Shown here: positions 1,121 to 43,735 of the stretch, one piece after another
Layout of the letters: each line of letters starts with the position of its first letter
Position numbering within the stretch: the stretch's first letter is position 1
Assembly (NCBI GenBank): GCA_001775055.1
Contig: MFBU01000005.1
Coordinates: 1 to 49,643, forward strand
Direction of reading: 5' to 3'
From: Candidatus Curtissbacteria bacterium RIFCSPLOWO2_02_41_11
Lineage (GTDB): Bacteria > Patescibacteriota > Microgenomatia > Curtissbacterales > GWA2-41-24
Length of the DNA: 49,643 nucleotides
Notes under the pieces: model-generated
Database searches by the model: none
The model's input: only the letters and a program-made list of their open reading frames with translations
What the model was told of the DNA's origin: nothing
Position numbers and translations under genes: made by a program

Positions 1121-1520
1121 AAGGCCGAGATTAAGATTTTTGCGGCGTGCCCAGGAGCCAGAAAAACTCGATTCAAAAAGGCCAGTTGGAGATTTAGTTA
1201 AGGTTGTTGTTTCGCTCATCTTATGGATAGTCATCGTCGTTTTTGCTGTTAAGATTTTTAACAAAGGCTTGCCCAAAATTCCAAGCAACCTGATTGATTG
1301 GACAGATTGGACGGATATCATGGATAGGACGCCGGCGGCTTCGCCAGTGGCAACTGCCCCAACTCCTAGCGCACAACCTAGCCTAATCCCAAACCCAACA
1401 ACTAGTCTGCCAGCCCCTTCGCCAACTTCTTCGACAAGTTCTCAAGGGCCGTCCAAAGTTACGCGTTCGTGCATTGTTTGTGCCAATGCCAGTCCGAGTC
1501 CGAGCCCGAGTCCAGAATAG
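1101..1520 (+). CDS. Small bitopic membrane protein with Pro/Ser/Thr-rich tail, possible ATT start
   Basis: The function is not recognised. The ORF track begins at TTG 1065 with no ribosome site, whereas a strong GAAGGAGGT points to ATT 1101. The product would be about 139 aa: a basic N-terminus (KFRRPRLRFLRR), one transmembrane helix (VVVSLILWIVIVVFAVKIF), a short DWTDWTDIMD repeat, then a low-complexity tail of Ala, Pro, Ser and Thr ending PSPSPSPSPE. The tail resembles an extracellular, possibly O-glycosylated, spacer. It overlaps the upstream surface-protein gene and sits just before a TMTC-like glycosyltransferase, so it could be an acceptor or partner; this is inference from position only. 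Confidence 0.55.
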   Translation: MFNLKFRRPRLRFLRRAQEPEKLDSKRPVGDLVKVVVSLILWIVIVVFAVKIFNKGLPKIPSNLIDWTDWTDIMDRTPAASPVATAPTPSAQPSLIPNPTTSLPAPSPTSSTSSQGPSKVTRSCIVCANASPSPSPSPE

Positions 1521-1555
1521 TGAATAGTCAATAGTCTAAAGTGAAAAGTTAAAAT
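1513..1555 (+). repeat. Degenerate 7-nt tandem repeat (GAATAGT-type), single arm
   Basis: Successive 7-mers GAATAGT, GAATAGT, CAATAGT, CTAAAGT, GAAAAGT follow each other from the end of the preceding CDS almost to the ATG at 1561. No inverted partner is seen nearby. Confidence 0.6.
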
Positions 1556-1560
1556 AAAAA

Positions 1561-3549
1561 ATGCCAATTATAAGACTGCTTTTTAATACCAAATTTCAGC
1601 TTGCTATCATTATTCTCTTGACGGTCGGCGTTTATGCTAACACATTTGGTAATCAATTGGTTTGGGATGATAAGACCTTCGCCGATTGGGAATTAACCGC
1701 AAGTTTTAAATCCTTGCCGCAATTTCTCAAAGGTGCACTGCCGCATCCCCATGAGGGGGATTATCGCCTCTTTAAAGGGATTATTTTAACCTTTGACAAA
1801 GTAGTATTTGCAAATTCCCTGTTTGTTTTTCACTTGCAGGCGATTTTAATTCATTTATCGGCGACACTTTTAGTCTATTTTCTGACAAAGAAGATCTTTG
1901 AACTAGAAACAATAAACGATAAACGAGAAACTGTGCTAAAAGTTTCTAGTTTCCAGTTTCCGTTTTCAGGTTTAGTCGCCTTTTTGACAGCTCTTTTATT
2001 TGGGGTTCACCCAGTCCATGTTGAGGCGGTTACATTTATAACTAGTAGCACGGATATTTTGGGCATTAGCTTTTTGCTGGCTGCCTTTTACTTCTACATC
2101 AGGGCAAGAAGTGAGTATCAATATCGAAAAAAGAGGCTGGCCATTAGCGGTCTTTTGGCACTGTTGGCCTTTGCCAGCTACGAGATTACTTTTATCCTGC
2201 CAGTGCTTGTAATTCTTTACGATTTCTGTTTTCCAATGAAAATTAAAGAGAGCGCAAAAGAGAGAATTTTTAGGCATCTTTATTTTTGGGGAATTTTGGC
2301 AAGTTATGCTGTTTTTCGGTTTGGGATTTTGAAATTAACCGAGAAAAGGGAATTTCTGGAGAACAGTTTTTATCTAACGATGTTGGCACAGGCAAAAGCA
2401 ATCTGGGAGTATATACAAATCATTGTTTTCCCATTGAATCTAACCATAAACCACAAACTCCCAAGCGGCATAAGCTCGCTTCACTATGTTGATTACAATG
2501 CGCAATCCTATCTTTCTCAGAAAATCACAGATTTATCTTTCTTATTTTCGGCAGCAGTCATAATCGGGGCAGTGGCAGCTGCTATTTTTTTATATAAAAG
2601 GTTACCGATTGTTACATTTTGTATATTTTGGTTTTTTGCCTCCATGGCAATAGTTTCCAATATTATTCCGCTTGGCAATTTTATGACAGAAAGGTATTTG
2701 TTTTTAGCATCGTATGGCTGGAGTCTGTTATTGGCATACATGGTCAGCCAAGTTGTTACTTCCAAGTTCAATCTCACAGTCAAATTCTCAGCTCTTAGTT
2801 CTTACCTTTCAGTTCTAGTGATGGTTTTAGCGGTGATAGGATTTACAACCATATTGGCTTTTTACTCAGTTAAGACATATCTGCGAAATCGAGACTGGCG
2901 TGATTCGTTTACCCTTTGGTCTTATGAATTGGCAAAATCTCCAGACAGTGTTCTGGCAAGTAATAATTTAGGCAATACCTATAAAGATAAAGGGGATTTA
3001 GCACGCGCCATTCAACTTTACGAGCGAGCAGAGGCTAAAAACTCAAGACGATTGAGCAAAGTTAACCTGAATCTTGGCGATGCTTATTGGGAAGACGGAC
3101 GCTTGGAGAAAGCCCTGGAGCAATATCAAAAAGCCATTGAGGCGGACAAGCGAGAGCCTTTGGCTTACTATGGCTTAGGTAGACTTTATGTGCAGCAAAA
3201 AAAGACTGACTTGGCGATTGAGGCATACACTAAGACTTTAGATTTAAACTCACTCTATTACCCGGCTTATATAGATTTAGGTGCCATTCTGGCCGAGACC
3301 GGCAAGCTGGATCGGGCGATTGAAAAGTTTACAATTGCAGCCAAAATAAAACCAGAGGAGGCCCTGCCTCACAGAAATTTGGCAGGTGTTTACAAGAAGC
3401 AGGGTAAACTTGATTTGGCAATTGCCGAATATCAAATGGCGCTTAAGCTTGATCCTGGAAATGAAGAGATAAAAAAGCAGTTACAAGAAACCCAAATTAG
3501 GCGCAATATCAAAATCAATCAAAATCAGCAAAAAGAAACAGAAAACTAA
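1561..3549 (+). CDS. TMTC-like GT-C membrane glycosyltransferase with C-terminal TPR repeats
   Basis: This 662-aa protein has an N-terminal polytopic half (about 9-11 helices to residue ~440) and about five TPR motifs from ~455 to 640 (for example ASNNLGNTYKDKGDLARAIQLYERA). The early loop after helix 1 carries FGNQLVWDDKTF, the acidic-pair position of GT-C enzymes. This arrangement matches the TMTC/DUF1736-type protein O-mannosyltransferase family, which transfers a sugar from a polyprenyl-phosphate donor on the outer face of the membrane. Residues ~115-137 (ETINDKRETVLKVSSFQFPF) are encoded by a 7-nt-periodic palindrome and look like an in-frame insertion in a loop. It sits between the surface protein and the exosortase, suggesting modification of sorted proteins (inference). 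Confidence 0.75.
   Translation: MPIIRLLFNTKFQLAIIILLTVGVYANTFGNQLVWDDKTFADWELTASFKSLPQFLKGALPHPHEGDYRLFKGIILTFDKVVFANSLFVFHLQAILIHLSATLLVYFLTKKIFELETINDKRETVLKVSSFQFPFSGLVAFLTALLFGVHPVHVEAVTFITSSTDILGISFLLAAFYFYIRARSEYQYRKKRLAISGLLALLAFASYEITFILPVLVILYDFCFPMKIKESAKERIFRHLYFWGILASYAVFRFGILKLTEKREFLENSFYLTMLAQAKAIWEYIQIIVFPLNLTINHKLPSGISSLHYVDYNAQSYLSQKITDLSFLFSAAVIIGAVAAAIFLYKRLPIVTFCIFWFFASMAIVSNIIPLGNFMTERYLFLASYGWSLLLAYMVSQVVTSKFNLTVKFSALSSYLSVLVMVLAVIGFTTILAFYSVKTYLRNRDWRDSFTLWSYELAKSPDSVLASNNLGNTYKDKGDLARAIQLYERAEAKNSRRLSKVNLNLGDAYWEDGRLEKALEQYQKAIEADKREPLAYYGLGRLYVQQKKTDLAIEAYTKTLDLNSLYYPAYIDLGAILAETGKLDRAIEKFTIAAKIKPEEALPHRNLAGVYKKQGKLDLAIAEYQMALKLDPGNEEIKKQLQETQIRRNIKINQNQQKETEN
1903..1969. 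repeat. Heptameric palindrome inside the TMTC-like coding sequence
   Basis: The left arm (1903-1932) carries AAAC every 7 nt (GAAACAATAAACGATAAACG). The right arm (1941-1968) carries GTTT every 7 nt (GTTTCTAGTTTCCAGTTTCC). The two are reverse complements in register, separated by 8 nt. The reading frame is kept. Confidence 0.75.
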
Positions 3550-5333: not shown

Positions 5334-7562
5334 GTGAGAAAATCGGCCCCGATTTTTTTATTGGGATTTATTACATTATTTTTTATCTGGCCACTTTTTA
5401 AATTCGGCTACACTGCCCAAACTGGTTCTTTGGAACCGGCGACTTTGGTTTTAGCAAGACGCGTGGCCGAGCAGGGTATTTTGGGTTGGGAATCGAGTTG
5501 GTATTTGGGTTTTCCGTTTAGATTTGCCGGACCACCTGCCTCTTGGTGGGTATTAGGTGCGATTGAGAAAATTGGCATTTTTGATCTTTTGGCAGTTTAT
5601 CGGATATTAAAAGCACTTGCTTTAGTTGCTTTTCCGATAACTTTTTATTTTTTGGCAAGGAGAGTATTTGGCGGTGTTTCAGCGGGTCCTGTCAAAGGCT
5701 CGTCCCAGCCGACGTCCTCGGACGAAAGGTCAACATTATTCGATACGGAAATTCATCAATTAACGTCCGGAGTAAATCGCGTCCTGCGGGCGCTCGATGG
5801 GACTCCCTCCGCCCGCGCCACCCGCTTTAAGATTGGAAATTGGAAATTGGAAATTGGAAATTCCCACTTCCCAGCCTTTTTAGCTAGCTTTTTTTTGATC
5901 ATGTTGCCTTCTGTCGGTTACATCTTCAAAAAGTTTTTTGTACTCGGGAGTGGGTTTGGCTTTGCCCCAGCTTGGATGCAGCAGGAATTTTCTCGAAGTT
6001 TGGGTCTGGCGCTTCTACCTTTGGTTTTAATTTTCTATTGGCGGCTTTTGGAGAAGATTAACTATTCTCGATTAGTCGCAACAATAATCGCAACAGCTCT
6101 GCTTTTTCTGACAGATGGGGTAACTTCGCTTGCACTTTTGGTTGGACTGACAGTAATCGTGATTATCGAGGCACATAAAGGTGATACTGCGCGCAAAGTA
6201 GCTGCCGTGGGTCTTGCACTGGTATTAGCGTTTTTACTAGATGCCTTTTTCTTTACACCGCAAAATATCCGCTTGATTGCTTCTTCGCCTTCGATTTCGG
6301 GAATTGGGCTGGTTTCATTTATTAAAGTGATGGTTCAGGCGGCAATCGGTCTTGGGCCGGCGGTTTTGGTAGTAGCTTCGATGAAGCTTTTAAGCAAAGG
6401 TAGGCAGTCTTTAGCTTTTATTTGGCTGTGGCTTTTGCCTTTTATTGCGATTACTTTGCTGTTTTATTTTTCCAACCGCCAGTTTTTGACCGAATACACC
6501 CGCTTTTTACCGGAGATGGAAATGGGGATTGCGCTTTTGTTGGGTTATTTGATTGCCCAAAAAGCATCAAGTATTAAGTATCAAGTATTAAGTATCCAGA
6601 GTTTATGGTCAGTTGTTGTCCTGGGAGCAATTTTGATTACTGTCGTGTACAGTTTTTATAAAACGCCGGCGCGCTGGCAAATATTTAAAACAAATCCTAA
6701 CATCAAGAACTCGGTTGAATATCAGATAGCCAAGTGGCTGGATCAGCAACTGACAACTAACAACAAACAACTAACAACTGACATCCCGGATAGGGTTTTT
6801 CTTTCCGGCTCAACGGCTTTTTGGCTTAATGAATTTGCGCCCGATGTTTGGCAGGTTAGAGGCGGCATTGATCAGGCTTCGACTAATCCGTCTTGGGCGC
6901 CGGCTGTCTATCATGTGCGCACAAGTCCAGATGCTGAAACTAGCCTTTTATGGCTGAAAGCCTTAAGGGTTGGTTATTTGGTCGTCCATGATCAAAGTTC
7001 GGGCGAGTATTACCATGATTTTGTCTATCCTGCAAAATTTGAGGGAAAGTTAGAGAAAGTTTTCGATAATCAGGCCGGCGATAGAATATATCGAATTGAT
7101 TCCCCAATGGCCTCTGTGACAACGCAAGCGGGCTTAAAAGACTTACTTTTGCCTGACCCTGCCAAAAGGAATGAACGACAAGCGCTTGATGTGTATACTG
7201 GTTGGTTACAAGCGGGAAAAAGGGCAAAATTGGAAGAAACAAGTAATGGACTTTTGGTAAAAGCTGAAATTGGCAAGGATGAAGTTTTGGCATTGGGAAT
7301 AACTTATGATCGCGGTTGGCAAGTCAAAGACTTACAGGGCGAAAAACTTAAGACAGCCGCTGATCCTTTGGGTAATTTAGTCATTTTTCCCCAAAAAGAA
7401 GGAGAGCAGACAATTACTTTGAAATTTCAAGAAGGAGTCGATCTTTGGCTGGGAATAGCTGTTTCTTTGGCGACTTTAGTCTTTATTAGATTTATCCTGT
7501 CCAAAAAACTGCCGATAATATTGGAAAGAGCCCAGAAAGGGTGGGAGGAGGAAGAGGAGTAA
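5334..7562 (+). CDS. Large GT-C/PTPS-related membrane protein
   Basis: This 742-aa protein with a GTG start has a signal-anchor helix, then a large periplasmic-type loop with LVLARRVAEQGILGWESSWYLG. About 10 more helices follow up to residue ~450, then a soluble C-terminal domain and a final helix. The order resembles the membrane proteins annotated as 6-pyruvoyl-tetrahydropterin synthase-related (PF10131-like), probable GT-C glycosyltransferases. The C-terminal tail GWEEEEE recalls WWEKEDE and WWQKEDEE in the two larger relatives downstream. Three stretches look inserted: residues ~118-178, IKYQVLSIQ (7-mer repeat), and QQLTTNNKQLTTD (7-mer repeat). Substrate unknown. Confidence 0.65.
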   Translation: MRKSAPIFLLGFITLFFIWPLFKFGYTAQTGSLEPATLVLARRVAEQGILGWESSWYLGFPFRFAGPPASWWVLGAIEKIGIFDLLAVYRILKALALVAFPITFYFLARRVFGGVSAGPVKGSSQPTSSDERSTLFDTEIHQLTSGVNRVLRALDGTPSARATRFKIGNWKLEIGNSHFPAFLASFFLIMLPSVGYIFKKFFVLGSGFGFAPAWMQQEFSRSLGLALLPLVLIFYWRLLEKINYSRLVATIIATALLFLTDGVTSLALLVGLTVIVIIEAHKGDTARKVAAVGLALVLAFLLDAFFFTPQNIRLIASSPSISGIGLVSFIKVMVQAAIGLGPAVLVVASMKLLSKGRQSLAFIWLWLLPFIAITLLFYFSNRQFLTEYTRFLPEMEMGIALLLGYLIAQKASSIKYQVLSIQSLWSVVVLGAILITVVYSFYKTPARWQIFKTNPNIKNSVEYQIAKWLDQQLTTNNKQLTTDIPDRVFLSGSTAFWLNEFAPDVWQVRGGIDQASTNPSWAPAVYHVRTSPDAETSLLWLKALRVGYLVVHDQSSGEYYHDFVYPAKFEGKLEKVFDNQAGDRIYRIDSPMASVTTQAGLKDLLLPDPAKRNERQALDVYTGWLQAGKRAKLEETSNGLLVKAEIGKDEVLALGITYDRGWQVKDLQGEKLKTAADPLGNLVIFPQKEGEQTITLKFQEGVDLWLGIAVSLATLVFIRFILSKKLPIILERAQKGWEEEEE
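5685..5870 (+). repeat. Foreign-looking in-frame insertion in the 742-aa protein gene
   Basis: The membrane sequence RRVFGGVSAG resumes at FPAFLASFFLIM. Between them lie about 60 polar residues (GPVKGSSQPTSSDERS...). The DNA here is richer in GC than its flanks, contains an inverted GCGGGCG...CGCCCGC, and ends in a perfect ATTGGAA heptamer array (5832-5862). Confidence 0.6.
6567..6597 (+). repeat. In-CDS 7-nt tandem repeat (TCAAGTA/TTAAGTA)
   Basis: TCAAGTA, TTAAGTA, TCAAGTA, TTAAGTA and then TCC: four heptamers forming a perfect 14-nt duplication, translated as SIKYQVLSI between two membrane segments. Confidence 0.7.
6747..6781 (+). repeat. In-CDS 7-nt tandem repeat (CAACTGA/CAACTAA)
   Basis: Five heptamers: CAACTGA, CAACTAA, CAACAAA, CAACTAA, CAACTGA. 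They are translated as QQLTTNNKQLTTD in the loop preceding the soluble domain. Confidence 0.7.
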
Positions 7563-7586
7563 CAATTGACAATTGACAATTGACAA
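7563..7586 (+). repeat. 7-nt tandem repeat (CAATTGA)
   Basis: About three copies of CAATTGA directly after the TAA of the 742-aa gene, running into the dispersed element at 7587. Confidence 0.65.
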
Positions 7587-7784
7587 GTTAGGAGGTTACG
7601 GTGACGATGCCCGTATCGGTAAAGGTAATTGGGTTAAGGTTATGATGCCGGTATAGTTTAGGGGTCAGGTTTTTAGTGTTAAATGACTCCTAACTTTACC
7701 TCTCAACCAAACCGGTTTCCTTACCTTTGCACTTACCAATATACGAAACTGGTTTCGTGGCCGATCAACGCTAAACGATTTGCA
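7587..7784. repeat. Dispersed palindromic element, copy A (also in 23S rRNA at 40235)
   Basis: The first 33 nt (GTTAGGAGGTTACGGTGACG...) match 40235-40267 at about 28 of 33 positions. The 3' part (ACGAAACTGGTTTCGT, then CGCTAAACGA) matches the end of the rRNA copy. The element contains the near-perfect palindromes ACGAAAC-TG-GTTTCGT and AAACCGGTTT. Copy A carries internally doubled versions of both halves. The upstream 34 residues of the ORF-track call at 7683 are encoded by it and are not counted as protein. Confidence 0.7.
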
Positions 7785-40083: not shown

Positions 40084-40234
40084 GGGTCAATTTTATGCGT
40101 TCAATGGATGCCTAGGTGCAACACACCGAAGAAGGACGTAGAGGGCTTACGATAAGTACCGGTGAGCTGCCGTCAAGCTTTGATCCGGTAATTTCCGAAT
40201 GGGGAAACCCGCTTGTGCATGGCACAAGAGGTTT

Positions 40235-40352
40235 GTTAAGAGGTTACGGTTACAATGCCAGTATCGTTTAGCGGTTACGTTTAGCGTTAATATTACGTTT
40301 GACGTCTAACTTTTTACGAAACGGGTTTCGTTACCGATAAACCCTAAACGAA
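40235..40352 (+). repeat. Dispersed palindromic element, copy B, inside 23S rRNA domain I
   Basis: It replaces a short loop between GGGAAACCC and GAACTGAAACATC. GTTAAGAGGTTACGGTTAC... matches 7587 onward, and ACGAAACGGGTTTCGT is a palindrome with 7-bp arms and a 2-nt loop. TCGTTTAGCGG and CCCTAAACGA form outer complementary arms. Confidence 0.7.
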
Positions 40353-40526
40353 TTTCTTGCGCTGTGCATGAGCACTTTAGTGCGAATACATAAGCGCTAG
40401 AGAGGGTACCGCCTGAACTGAAACATCTAAGTAAGGCGAGGAAAAGAAAACAAACCAGTGATTCCCTAAGTAGTGGCGAGCGAAAGGGGAAGAGCCTAAA
40501 CTTGAGCGAGGCATTGAGCCTCGCAG

Positions 40527-40633
40527 TGGGTAGTTAATAGTTGGTAGTAGGTAGTTGGCGGCAAATTAATTGCAGCTTCTACAAGCTACAAGCGAGTCGA
40601 GTCCGACTCGACGAGTGAACTACTAACTACAAG
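40527..40633 (+). repeat. 7-nt-periodic palindrome in 23S rRNA domain I
   Basis: Left arm is built of 7-mers GTAGTTA, ATAGTTG, GTAGTAG, GTAGTTG. The right arm AACTACTAACTAC is the complement in register. A GC-rich hairpin (GTCGAGTCCGACTCGAC) sits between them. Confidence 0.7.
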
Positions 40634-40859
40634 TCGAATTCATTCGGCGTACTGCGAAGCTGAAAGCTTCGCTTGAGGGTTGCGGGACTCAAATATGAGA
40701 CTATTGCGGATAGCAGAATAATCTGGAATGGTTGGCCATAGATGGTGAAAGCCCAGTATGTGAAATTCAAGATAGCTCTATGAGTATCCCAAGTACTACG
40801 GGACACGCGAAATCCTGTAGGAATCCGGCTCGACCATGAGCCAAGGCTAAATATGTGTT

Positions 40860-40899
<40 letters not shown>

Positions 40900-41696
40900 G
40901 AGTACCCCGGAAGGGGAATGAAAAGTACCTGAAATTGAACGCTAACAAGCAATCGGAGCCCCGCTCTTTTTGCGCGTAAGAAGACCATGATTTAAGGCTA
41001 GTAAAGTCGTGTTTAGATTAAGTCACGGTTTTGTCTTGTGTCCAAAAAGAGCGGGGTGACGGTGTGCCTATTGAAGAATGAACCGGTGAGTTTTATCATG
41101 CTGTAGTCTAACCCCGCTAAGCGGGGGGAGGCAGAGTGAAAGCAAGCGTTAATAGCGCGTTTTAATACAGCATGTTAAAGACCCGAAACCGCGTGAGCTA
41201 ACCATGACCAGGATGAAGTCCCGCTAACGCGGGATGGAGGTCCGAACCCGTGTCAGATGCAAGTGGTTGGGATGAGTTGTGGTTAGGGGTGATATGCCAA
41301 TCGAACGCGGAGATAGCTGGTTCTCCCCGAAATATATTTAGGTATAGCCCTTGTCTAACTTCACAGGGGTAGAGCACTGAATGGGTGATGCGAAGCAATT
41401 TGTGTCATTCAATCAAACTACGAATACTGTGAAACAAATTGGGCGAGGAGTCAGTCCGACCCGGATAAGCGGGCCAGGGCTAAAGGGAAACAACCCAGAT
41501 CCAAAGCTAAGGTCCCAAAGTGTATTTTAAGTGTTAAAGGTAGTACTAGCGCCAAGACAGCAAGGAGGTTGGCTTAGAGGCAGCCATCCTTTAAAGAAAG
41601 CGTAACAGCTCACTTGTCGATTGCGGTAGTGCGCCGACAATGTACCGGGGCTCAAAAATACCACCGAAGCTTGGGATTTGTCCGAAGGACAAATAT

Positions 41697-41779
41697 CGCG
41701 GAACTAAGCAGAACTTTACGCAGAAATACGCAGGATTGTCGGCGTTATTCCGCGTTTAGTTCAGCGTTTTTCAGCGGTA
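41697..41779 (+). repeat. 10-nt-periodic palindrome in 23S rRNA
   Basis: The left arm has ACGCAGAAAT, ACGCAGGATT and GCAGAACTTT decamers. The right arm has CCGCGTTTAG, TTCAGCGTTT and TTCAGCGG. The arms are complementary in register. It lies between ACCGAAGCTT and GGTAGGGGAGCG, where E. coli has only a short stem-loop. Confidence 0.65.
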
Positions 41780-42355
41780 CTTGCCCTTCGGGCAAGTGGT
41801 AGGGGAGCGTTTGCATTGCGGTGAAGGTCACGGCGTAAGCCGGACTGGAGCGATGCGAAGTGAGAATGCCGGTATGAGTAGCGAAAGTCCCGTGGGAATC
41901 GGGACCGCCGAATGTCCAAGGTTTCCTACGCAACGTTCGTCGACGTAGGGTTAGTCGGTCCTAAGGCGAGGCCAGAAGGCGTAGTCGATGGATAAGCAGT
42001 TAATATTCTGCTACTTTGGCAAAATCGTTTTAAAGCAAAGGGAAGACGAAAATGGAAAATTCCTAGGTCGAAATGATACGGCCCCTAAAAAGTAAGAAAG
42101 TAAAATGTGGAAAATCCCTTTTTATGATTATTCGAGCTTTGATGGTTAGCTGCCGCAAGGTGGCAAAAGGAAAAGTTTCAATTTCCAAGAAATTTTCTCG
42201 TTGTTAGATTTTATCAAAACCGTACCTAAACCGACACAGGTGGACTGGTATTAGAGTACCAAGGCGAGCGAGAAAACTATCCTTAAGGAACTCGGCAATA
42301 TAACTGGACGTACCTTTGGTAGATGTCCTCCCTGGCCGTCTTTCAGACGGCTACA

Positions 42356-42450
42356 GTTGACATTTGACATCTGACAACTGACAAAATTGGAATTTTTTAT
42401 TTACAAATTTTCCGCTTAAGTCAATTGTCAATTGTTATTTGTTATTTGTT
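42356..42450 (+). repeat. 7-nt-periodic palindrome in 23S rRNA
   Basis: Left arm: TTGACATTTGACATCTGACA and ACTGACAAA (TGACANN period 7). Right arm: GTCAATTGTCAATTGTTATT and TGTTATTTGTT. The arms are complementary and enclose about 36 nt. Confidence 0.7.
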
Positions 42451-42778
42451 GCCGCCCGACGGGCGGCTGGGGCGCAGTTAACGACGCCAGGCGACTGTTT
42501 AACAAAAACACAGGTCTCTGCAAAGTCGAAAGACGAAGTATAGAGGCTGACACCTGCCCAGTGCTCGTAGGTTAATCGTCTGAGGTGATCTGTCTTTGGA
42601 CAGTGAGCTTCGGATGCAAGCCCGGGTAAACGGCAGCAGTAACTATAACTGTTCTAAGGTAGCGAAATTCCTTGTCGGGCAAGTTCCGACCCGCACGAAA
42701 GGTTGAACGACTCGGCGACTGTCTTGAGGATAGACTCGGCGAAATTGCAATGGCTGTGAAGATGCGGCCAACTTGCAC

Positions 42779-42809
<31 letters not shown>

Positions 42810-42953
42810 CAGCTTGGCATTGATTTGGAGATTAGACTTGTATAGCGTAGGAGGGAGCCAGGTACCGTTTGGTACCTGGCGACAATGTAACACCTCCCGG
42901 TTTGCTTTTCAAATCTTACCGTTTGTCCTAATAAAATACGGGAGACGGGACAG

Positions 42954-43007
<54 letters not shown>

Positions 43008-43150
43008 TACAAAGGTCGACTCAACTCCTACAGAAACGGAGCGTTAGAGTGCAAAGGCATAAGTCGGCTTAACTGTAAGTGGTACATCACGAGCAGATGC
43101 GAAAGCAGGTCTTAGTGATCCTCACGTTGCTTATGGGAGCGCGTGAGCTT

Positions 43151-43183
<33 letters not shown>

Positions 43184-43617
43184 GATCTTCCCCAAGAGTC
43201 CATATCGACGGGAAGGTTTGGCACCTCGATGTCGGCTCACCGTATCCTCCCGCTGAAGTAGGCGGGAAGGGTTGGGCTGTTCGCCCATTAAAACGGTACG
43301 CGAGCTGGGTTCAGAACGGCGTGAGCCAGTTCGGCCTCTATCCGGTGCAAGCGTTTGATACTTGAGGGGGGTCACCACTAGTACGAGAGGACCGTGGTGA
43401 GTTAGCCTCTAGTGTGCCAGTTGTCACATCAGTGGCAGTGCTGGGTAGCCACGCTAATAACTGAGAAGCGCTGAAAGCATCTAAGCGCCAAACAGGCCCC
43501 AAGACTAGGTATCTGTAAGATCCGTTGTAGACTACGACGTTGATAGGCGGCAGGTGTAAAGCAAGTAATTGTTGTCGCGCGCAAGCGCGAGAGCGCTTAG
43601 CGGAATGCGTGGACTAT

Positions 43618-43680
43618 TAACTAGAAACAAGAAACCTTAAACAATTTCTAAAGTTTCTGGTTTCAAGTTTCATGTTAATT
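43618..43680 (+). repeat. 7-nt-periodic palindrome near the 23S rRNA 3' end
   Basis: Left arm CTAGAAACAAGAAACCTTAA, right arm AAGTTTCTGGTTTCAAGTTT: GAAAC and GTTTC every 7 nt in complementary arms, inserted in a distal hairpin of domain VI. Confidence 0.7.
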
Positions 43681-43735
43681 GTTCGCCAGCTTCGCTGGCG
43701 TTCAGCTTAGCCGTACTAATAGATCGAATGACCAA

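Follow-up and report, generated by a model that had tools for sequence, protein, structure and literature searches.

Why does the gene of a polytopic membrane protein contain, in frame, a palindrome built on a seven-nucleotide rhythm, and is this palindrome a single occurrence or one copy of something more widespread? The stretch of DNA analysed here as a whole, called the window, measures 49,643 nucleotides and corresponds to contig C5:1-49643 of genome G000 (1,078,522 bases, 99.8% complete). The answer that we favour, as the probable one by a reasonable distance from certainty, is that a palindromic element, non-autonomous and dispersed through the genome, has left one of its copies here; it would be one of several families with the same architecture. 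The features discussed below are collected in Table 1.

Table 1. Coordinates of the features; positions are those of the window, except for the two hairpin repeats, which are given by contig of G000
Feature	Position	Strand	Basis or remark
Heptad array GTCAATA, directly upstream of host gene	1508..1555	+	period-7 scan
Host gene, 662-aa polytopic TMTC-like membrane protein, C-terminal TPR repeats	1561..3549	+	
R1-family element, 72-nt palindrome	1901..1972	+	sequence; R1 model match 1899-1976
Left arm, 31 nt, five cores AAC/AAAC at 7-nt spacing	1901..1931	+	sequence, alignment
Loop, 10 nt, TGTGCTAAAA	1932..1941	+	sequence, alignment
Right arm, 31 nt, five cores GTTT/TTTT/GTT at 7-nt spacing	1942..1972	+	sequence, alignment
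Heptad array ATTGGAA x ~4.5, inside ORF 5334-7562	5821..5876	+	period-7 scan
Heptad array AGTATYA, inside ORF 5334-7562	6557..6603	+	period-7 scan
Heptad array CAACTRA, inside ORF 5334-7562	6742..6788	+	period-7 scan
Heptad array CAATTGA, 3' end of ORF 5334-7562	7552..7598	+	period-7 scan
23S rRNA gene	40087..43735	+	Rfam match ends 43606; 3' end set by conserved GTACTAAT strand
23S rRNA insertions with GGTAGTT / ACTAC heptads	40504..40664	+	
Heptad palindrome CAACTGA / TCAATTG in 23S rRNA	42336..42458	+	~115 nt
Sibling R1 copy in 23S rRNA gene, just before conserved 3' end (GTACTAAT at ~43713)	43608..43687	+	
core8 hairpin copies	C24:8348, C14:118297, C14:138962, C7:28506, C2:50161		
core7 hairpin copies	C5:85137, 88222, 80729, C4:10518, C6:8837		

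Architecture of the element and its site in the host protein

A sequence-only reading of this locus had described complementary arms at 1903-1969 in which AAAC and GTTT recur every 7 nt. This periodic structure was confirmed with five cores per arm, although each end of the element had been placed two or three bases short. The left arm reads AAC-TAG-AAAC-AAT-AAAC-GAT-AAAC-GAG-AAAC and the right arm GTTT-CTA-GTTT-CCA-GTTT-CCG-TTTT-CAG-GTT. According to the alignment, the arm length of four heptads plus a three-base core (4x7+3) is the same in the relatives of the element. As a hairpin the palindrome is unexceptional (DNA z -1.4, RNA z -2.5), because pairing is confined to the cores.

The element comprises 24 codons and covers residues ~115-137 of the host ORF. 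Four homologues with 20-26% identity in BLASTP showed gaps of ~10, 17, 18 and 23 residues exactly at the element, and in an alignment of 16 sequences the loop was shorter in every homologue spanning the site, a comparison that applies to the protein level given that the homologues are just 20-28% identical and the exact element borders are not readable in their DNA. Orthologs all carrying a similar segment around these residues, the outcome that would have spoken against an in-frame insertion, were not encountered, and the earlier claim of such an insertion is upheld.

Seven-nucleotide periodicity in the window and the genome

The scan of the window revealed nine arrays at period 7 and zero or one at the other periods between 4 and 15, save the harmonic 14. 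Genome-wide, 193 arrays were obtained at period 7, 97 at period 14, and 0-34 at the remaining non-harmonic periods between 4 and 15. A stricter window gave 92 period-7 arrays in the genome versus none in a second-order Markov shuffle, so that shuffled and real sequence did not yield equal numbers. Eighty distinct heptad units were counted among the arrays of G000. An inverted partner at most 80 nt away and with a score of at least 20 was present for 36 of the 193 arrays, and the same partner scan gave five direct partners and seven in each of two controls. For the comparison of arms, 39 inverted pairs with gaps of 0-52 nt were counted; with 80 units and these pairs, the observation of the sequence-only reading that constructs with differing arms occur at many loci is supported. 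Approximately 150 of the 193 arrays are without a detectable inverted partner, so the palindromic element does not account for all arrays; slippage may have produced the partnerless ones, or they may be halves of elements or elements in decay.

The length of the arrays in G000 peaks at 25-27 and 30-34 nt and then falls off sharply. Both peaks are identical for arrays in coding sequences and in intergenic DNA, which rules out the reading frame, and with it any protein-coding cause, as the reason for the fixed length. Relatives of the same family exhibited a peak at 31-33 nt; array densities in the relatives are rough estimates, and the divergence between G030 and G050, two genomes of the same genus, was too high for a useful comparison. 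The lineage was assigned from the small genome size and from the lack of uL30, a protein that CPR bacteria do not have and that was absent in 16 of the 16 genomes examined. Variable columns within arrays are only mildly clustered, hence we do not claim a strict "5+2" rule.

The 742-aa ORF 5334-7562 is without any Pfam match and contains three different heptad arrays. Multi-unit heptad arrays were also seen in Bacteroidota, Verrucomicrobia, Planctomycetes, Desulfobacterales, Cyanobacteria and Curtissbacteria (L140-L219), with a mode of 4.5 units and some arrays far longer in the other phyla. One record of Candidatus Curtissbacteria (Microgenomates) bears the same kind of heptad arrays.

Dispersed families R1 and R2

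BLAST searches with arrays and their flanks against the genome showed that palindromes at unrelated loci align across both arms. A covariance model, R1, was built from seven AAAC/GTTT copies with the window copy left out, and its search of the 1.08 Mb genome returned 12 full-length loci. Among them it recovered the window copy over 79 of 79 positions (56 bits, E 3e-8 for the genome). Across 657 kb of genomes from the same family, the model gave no hit with an E below 0.33. In the R1 consensus structure the cores pair and the 3-nt spacers are unpaired, and no covariation was found outside the invariant cores of the alignment. All R1 copies, the window copy included, would share a common descent; a chance AAAC/GTTT heptad palindrome with the right spacing would also score well on the model, so for the window copy this view draws mainly on its geometry.

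Common descent is firmer for R2, a model built from the copies in TsaD, a C10 ORF and C14. It recovered the LeuRS copy with E 2e-10 plus further copies, amounting to ~12 loci in G000, and R2 copies also occur in G008, a sister genus, where the LeuRS orthologue carries one at the corresponding site. The copies in LeuRS, TsaD and C10 have a common loop, their left arms contain the same irregular GAGTC, and they share the peptide VGSxESVxGSxN..NYEL in one frame. All coding R2 copies (LeuRS, TsaD and two glycosyltransferase ORFs) use a single reading frame, and of the six frames of an element usually no more than one is open. The sequence-only reading had regarded the constructs as a class defined by structure and not as one family of repeats. 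The class stands, but it contains dispersed families, and the window copy falls into R1 with its 12 loci.

Three tandem paralogous ORFs at C20:55580-57580 of G000, two of them nearly identical, have an R1 palindrome near each 5' end; this trio is a recent segmental duplication.

Insertions in 23S rRNA and in protein genes

The 23S rRNA gene of the window is ~600 nt longer than the family model, its match occupying 3520 nt for 2925 model positions. Compared with two genomes of the same class, it contains nine insertions of at least 18 nt, and heptad palindromes are contained in those at 40504-40664 and 42336-42458. Several of the insertions in this gene are lineage-specific. Positions 40520-40597 match R2 (E 4e-4), and the ~115 nt inserted at 42336-42458 are missing from the family consensus and from both same-class genomes. 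In another genome of the same family (G006 C20; L348/L349), the 3' region of the 23S rRNA is also expanded, with a different, non-identical insert sequence.

Fifty ORFs contain heptad arrays in their interior, including those for FolD, LeuRS, ArgRS, TsaD, MiaA, LepA, RsmH, PriA, transketolase and a class II, Lys/Asp/Asn-type tRNA synthetase. FolD has ~16 extra residues at the array in comparison to solved structures; the difference in LepA is a mere one residue, and therefore not all arrays are clear insertions. The arrays of LeuRS, TsaD and MiaA occupy loops that are short in outgroups, and the insertions are absent from the outgroup proteins. One and the same LeuRS site carries different heptads in four genera (GTCAAAA, GTTAAAA, CGAAATC and CCAGAAA), for which re-insertion or turnover of units is needed, and a MiaA array is common to several genera with changed units. 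Insertion sites recur and heptad units turn over. Neither a target-site duplication nor an empty site at base resolution was seen among the loci compared.

A 1335-aa ORF (L040:2368-6375) combines an IS481/IS3-like helix-turn-helix N-terminus with a following cellulose-synthase-like GT2 domain and contains three heptad arrays and an R2 element.

Origin of the elements

The sequence-only reading had left two options for the origin of the segment, a neutral selfish element and template switching at replication forks, and the former is supported. The families share two inverted arms of ~31 nt, each with five cores of 4-5 nt at 7-nt spacing and variable 3-nt spacers, and a short loop. In the explanation that we propose, such an element would be copied in trans by an enzyme of the host or of a transposon, and its copies would insert between genes, into tolerant helices of the 23S rRNA and into protein loops. 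An insertion into a coding sequence would survive only if the single frame of the element that lacks stops is continuous with that of the gene, adding a polar surface peptide of ~24-28 residues. Insertions that break the frame or the fold would be removed, leaving near-neutral passengers. The data show the geometry, the excess of period 7, the dispersal, the in-frame position within essential genes, the presence in rRNA, the single open frame and the restriction to a lineage, whereas mobility and selfishness are our inference; the class as a whole is probably selfish and near-neutral.

Template switching would make one arm a fold-back copy of the other, and inverted arms with a common heptad core and short gaps (0-52 nt) are what it predicts. 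Arm against arm, the invariant columns are 88% identical. The variable columns, however, reach 0.58 in the best register versus 0.593 +/- 0.011 with units shuffled and thus lack a register-specific correspondence, and whole elements recur at unrelated loci. Because neither arm reproduces the other unit by unit, a simple and recent fold-back copying is unlikely. Later turnover of units could have erased the register, which is why we take the comparison to weaken template switching rather than to dispose of it, and we give this origin a very small chance.

The missing unit-by-unit match of the arms also agrees with a local birth of the arrays, in which the polymerase slips in 7-nt steps, arrays including adjacent inverted ones arise in situ and nothing transposes. 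We consider this unlikely, albeit deserving of serious attention: units are homogeneous within an array and different at orthologous sites such as that in LeuRS, MutS is absent from this family, and in many bacteria the long simple repeats are most often heptanucleotide repeats, for which slippage has been proposed (PMC4679880, PMC4692102, reporting Mrazek et al. 2007). The missing MutS may help repeats to persist, without explaining the value seven. Slippage, however, predicts falling lengths and not two peaks with few longer arrays, leaves the inverted pairing of 36 versus 5 direct partners unexplained, and offers no reason for a common loop, irregularity and reading frame in unrelated genes. 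A fixed count of evenly spaced cores might instead point to binding sites of a DNA- or RNA-binding protein or to a structured regulatory RNA, and heptamer direct repeats have been proposed as cold-shock-protein sites in Beggiatoaceae (PMC4679880). Eighty different heptads in one genome and the position of arrays inside essential coding sequences and rRNA are hard to reconcile with binding sites, and structured RNA was rejected given the missing covariation outside the invariant cores and the lack of an Rfam match at threshold, so that this reading is highly improbable. Rather doubtful, and put forward as a speculation, is a sequence-agnostic but geometry-specific generator that would start at a local seed and write four to five units of 7 nt each (~31 nt); it is equally speculative that its output, single or as an inverted pair, would extend over many phyla and be the source of both the palindromes and the heptanucleotide excess.

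Candidate enzymes were compared with array density among the relatives. Y1 transposase and Pol IV were rejected as the cause, since they occur in nearly all relatives regardless of density (Y1 genes in 19 of the 21 genomes searched), as was reverse transcriptase, which is found in about half of the relatives with no obvious relation to density. G000 has two Y1 genes. The RAYT-like one (L096:5400-6800; C25:25983-26312) is flanked by CAAGACCCGGACTT repeats, not by heptads, and the second is located at C9:44170.

Comparison with known repeat systems

Rickettsia palindromic elements (RPE) and Wolbachia palindromic elements (WPE) are lineage-restricted families of dispersed palindromes in intergenic DNA, in frame in conserved genes and also in RNA genes (PMC2229807, PMC10969869, PMC4224334). 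The elements described here resemble them in their dispersed copies (12 R1 and ~12 R2 loci in G000), in the in-frame position with an open frame in LeuRS, TsaD, two glycosyltransferase ORFs and P0001, and in the insertion into an RNA gene, here 23S rRNA. RPE, however, measure 105-146 bp and form a long stable stem-loop, whereas the present elements have 72-85 nt and the window copy folds weakly (DNA z -1.4). Unlike in RPE, the arms consist of five cores spaced by 7 nt with unpaired 3-nt spacers, and the host does not belong to the Rickettsiales. NCBIfam contains RPE models, and none appeared among the matches listed at E<=1 when seven host proteins were searched. Since the present elements differ from RPE in two defining features, size with stability and sequence, we do not file them as such; the best explanation is that they would behave like RPE while having heptad arms and unpaired spacers.

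Bacterial heptanucleotide repeats have long been known to be over-represented, with approximately four to five copies per array and slippage as the hypothesis (PMC4692102, PMC4679880, PMC2700814). Examples of such LSSR are TAACTGA of Beggiatoaceae, GGGAATC of Xanthomonas and the arrays of G. metallireducens (PMC4679880, PMC4692102, PMC2700814). The 7-nt unit, tandem repetition beyond chance, the copy number of approximately four to five, occasional inverted pairs (Xanthomonas) and a location sometimes within genes are common to both. LSSR, however, have one dominant unit, in contrast to 80 units per genome here, many of them in essential coding sequences. For LSSR a copy number varying freely by slippage would be expected, whereas lengths here peak at 25-27 and 30-34 nt, and unlike LSSR the present elements are true dispersed palindromes with a fixed arm length.

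With REP/RAYT and other bacterial MITEs the elements share that they are short, palindromic and non-autonomous. In REP/RAYT systems the palindromes flank the Y1 transposase gene and serve as its substrate; of the two Y1 genes of G000, the one that was read has another repeat on its flanks. The terminal inverted repeat with target duplication typical of MITEs was not seen among the loci compared. Borg tandem repeats create new disordered protein regions (PMC9879509), but they belong to archaeal extrachromosomal elements, whereas the repeats here are inverted, based on 7 nt and chromosomal. Heptad repeats and coding palindromes are thus each known; the open-access literature searched gave no account of such elements in Patescibacteria, nor of the combination of both features.

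The best-known coding palindromes are those of Rickettsia and Wolbachia. The elements reported here would be an independent class, built internally on a 7-nt architecture, that is dense in one Patescibacteria-like family and resides in tRNA synthetases, in tRNA-modification enzymes and in 23S rRNA. Such a class would show that selfish palindromes repeatedly invade essential genes of reduced bacterial genomes and shape protein loops. With a sequence-independent geometry of 31 nt and five cores, present also in arrays of other phyla, the old question of why simple repeats of bacteria prefer seven bases becomes testable.

G000 also harbours two GC-rich hairpin repeats, core8 and core7, each in five nearly identical copies, all of which have a heptad array around them and lie at its middle. 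The units of the surrounding arrays differ between copies, and on both sides of one copy they are largely the same and in direct orientation. These hairpins either target heptad arrays or generate them.
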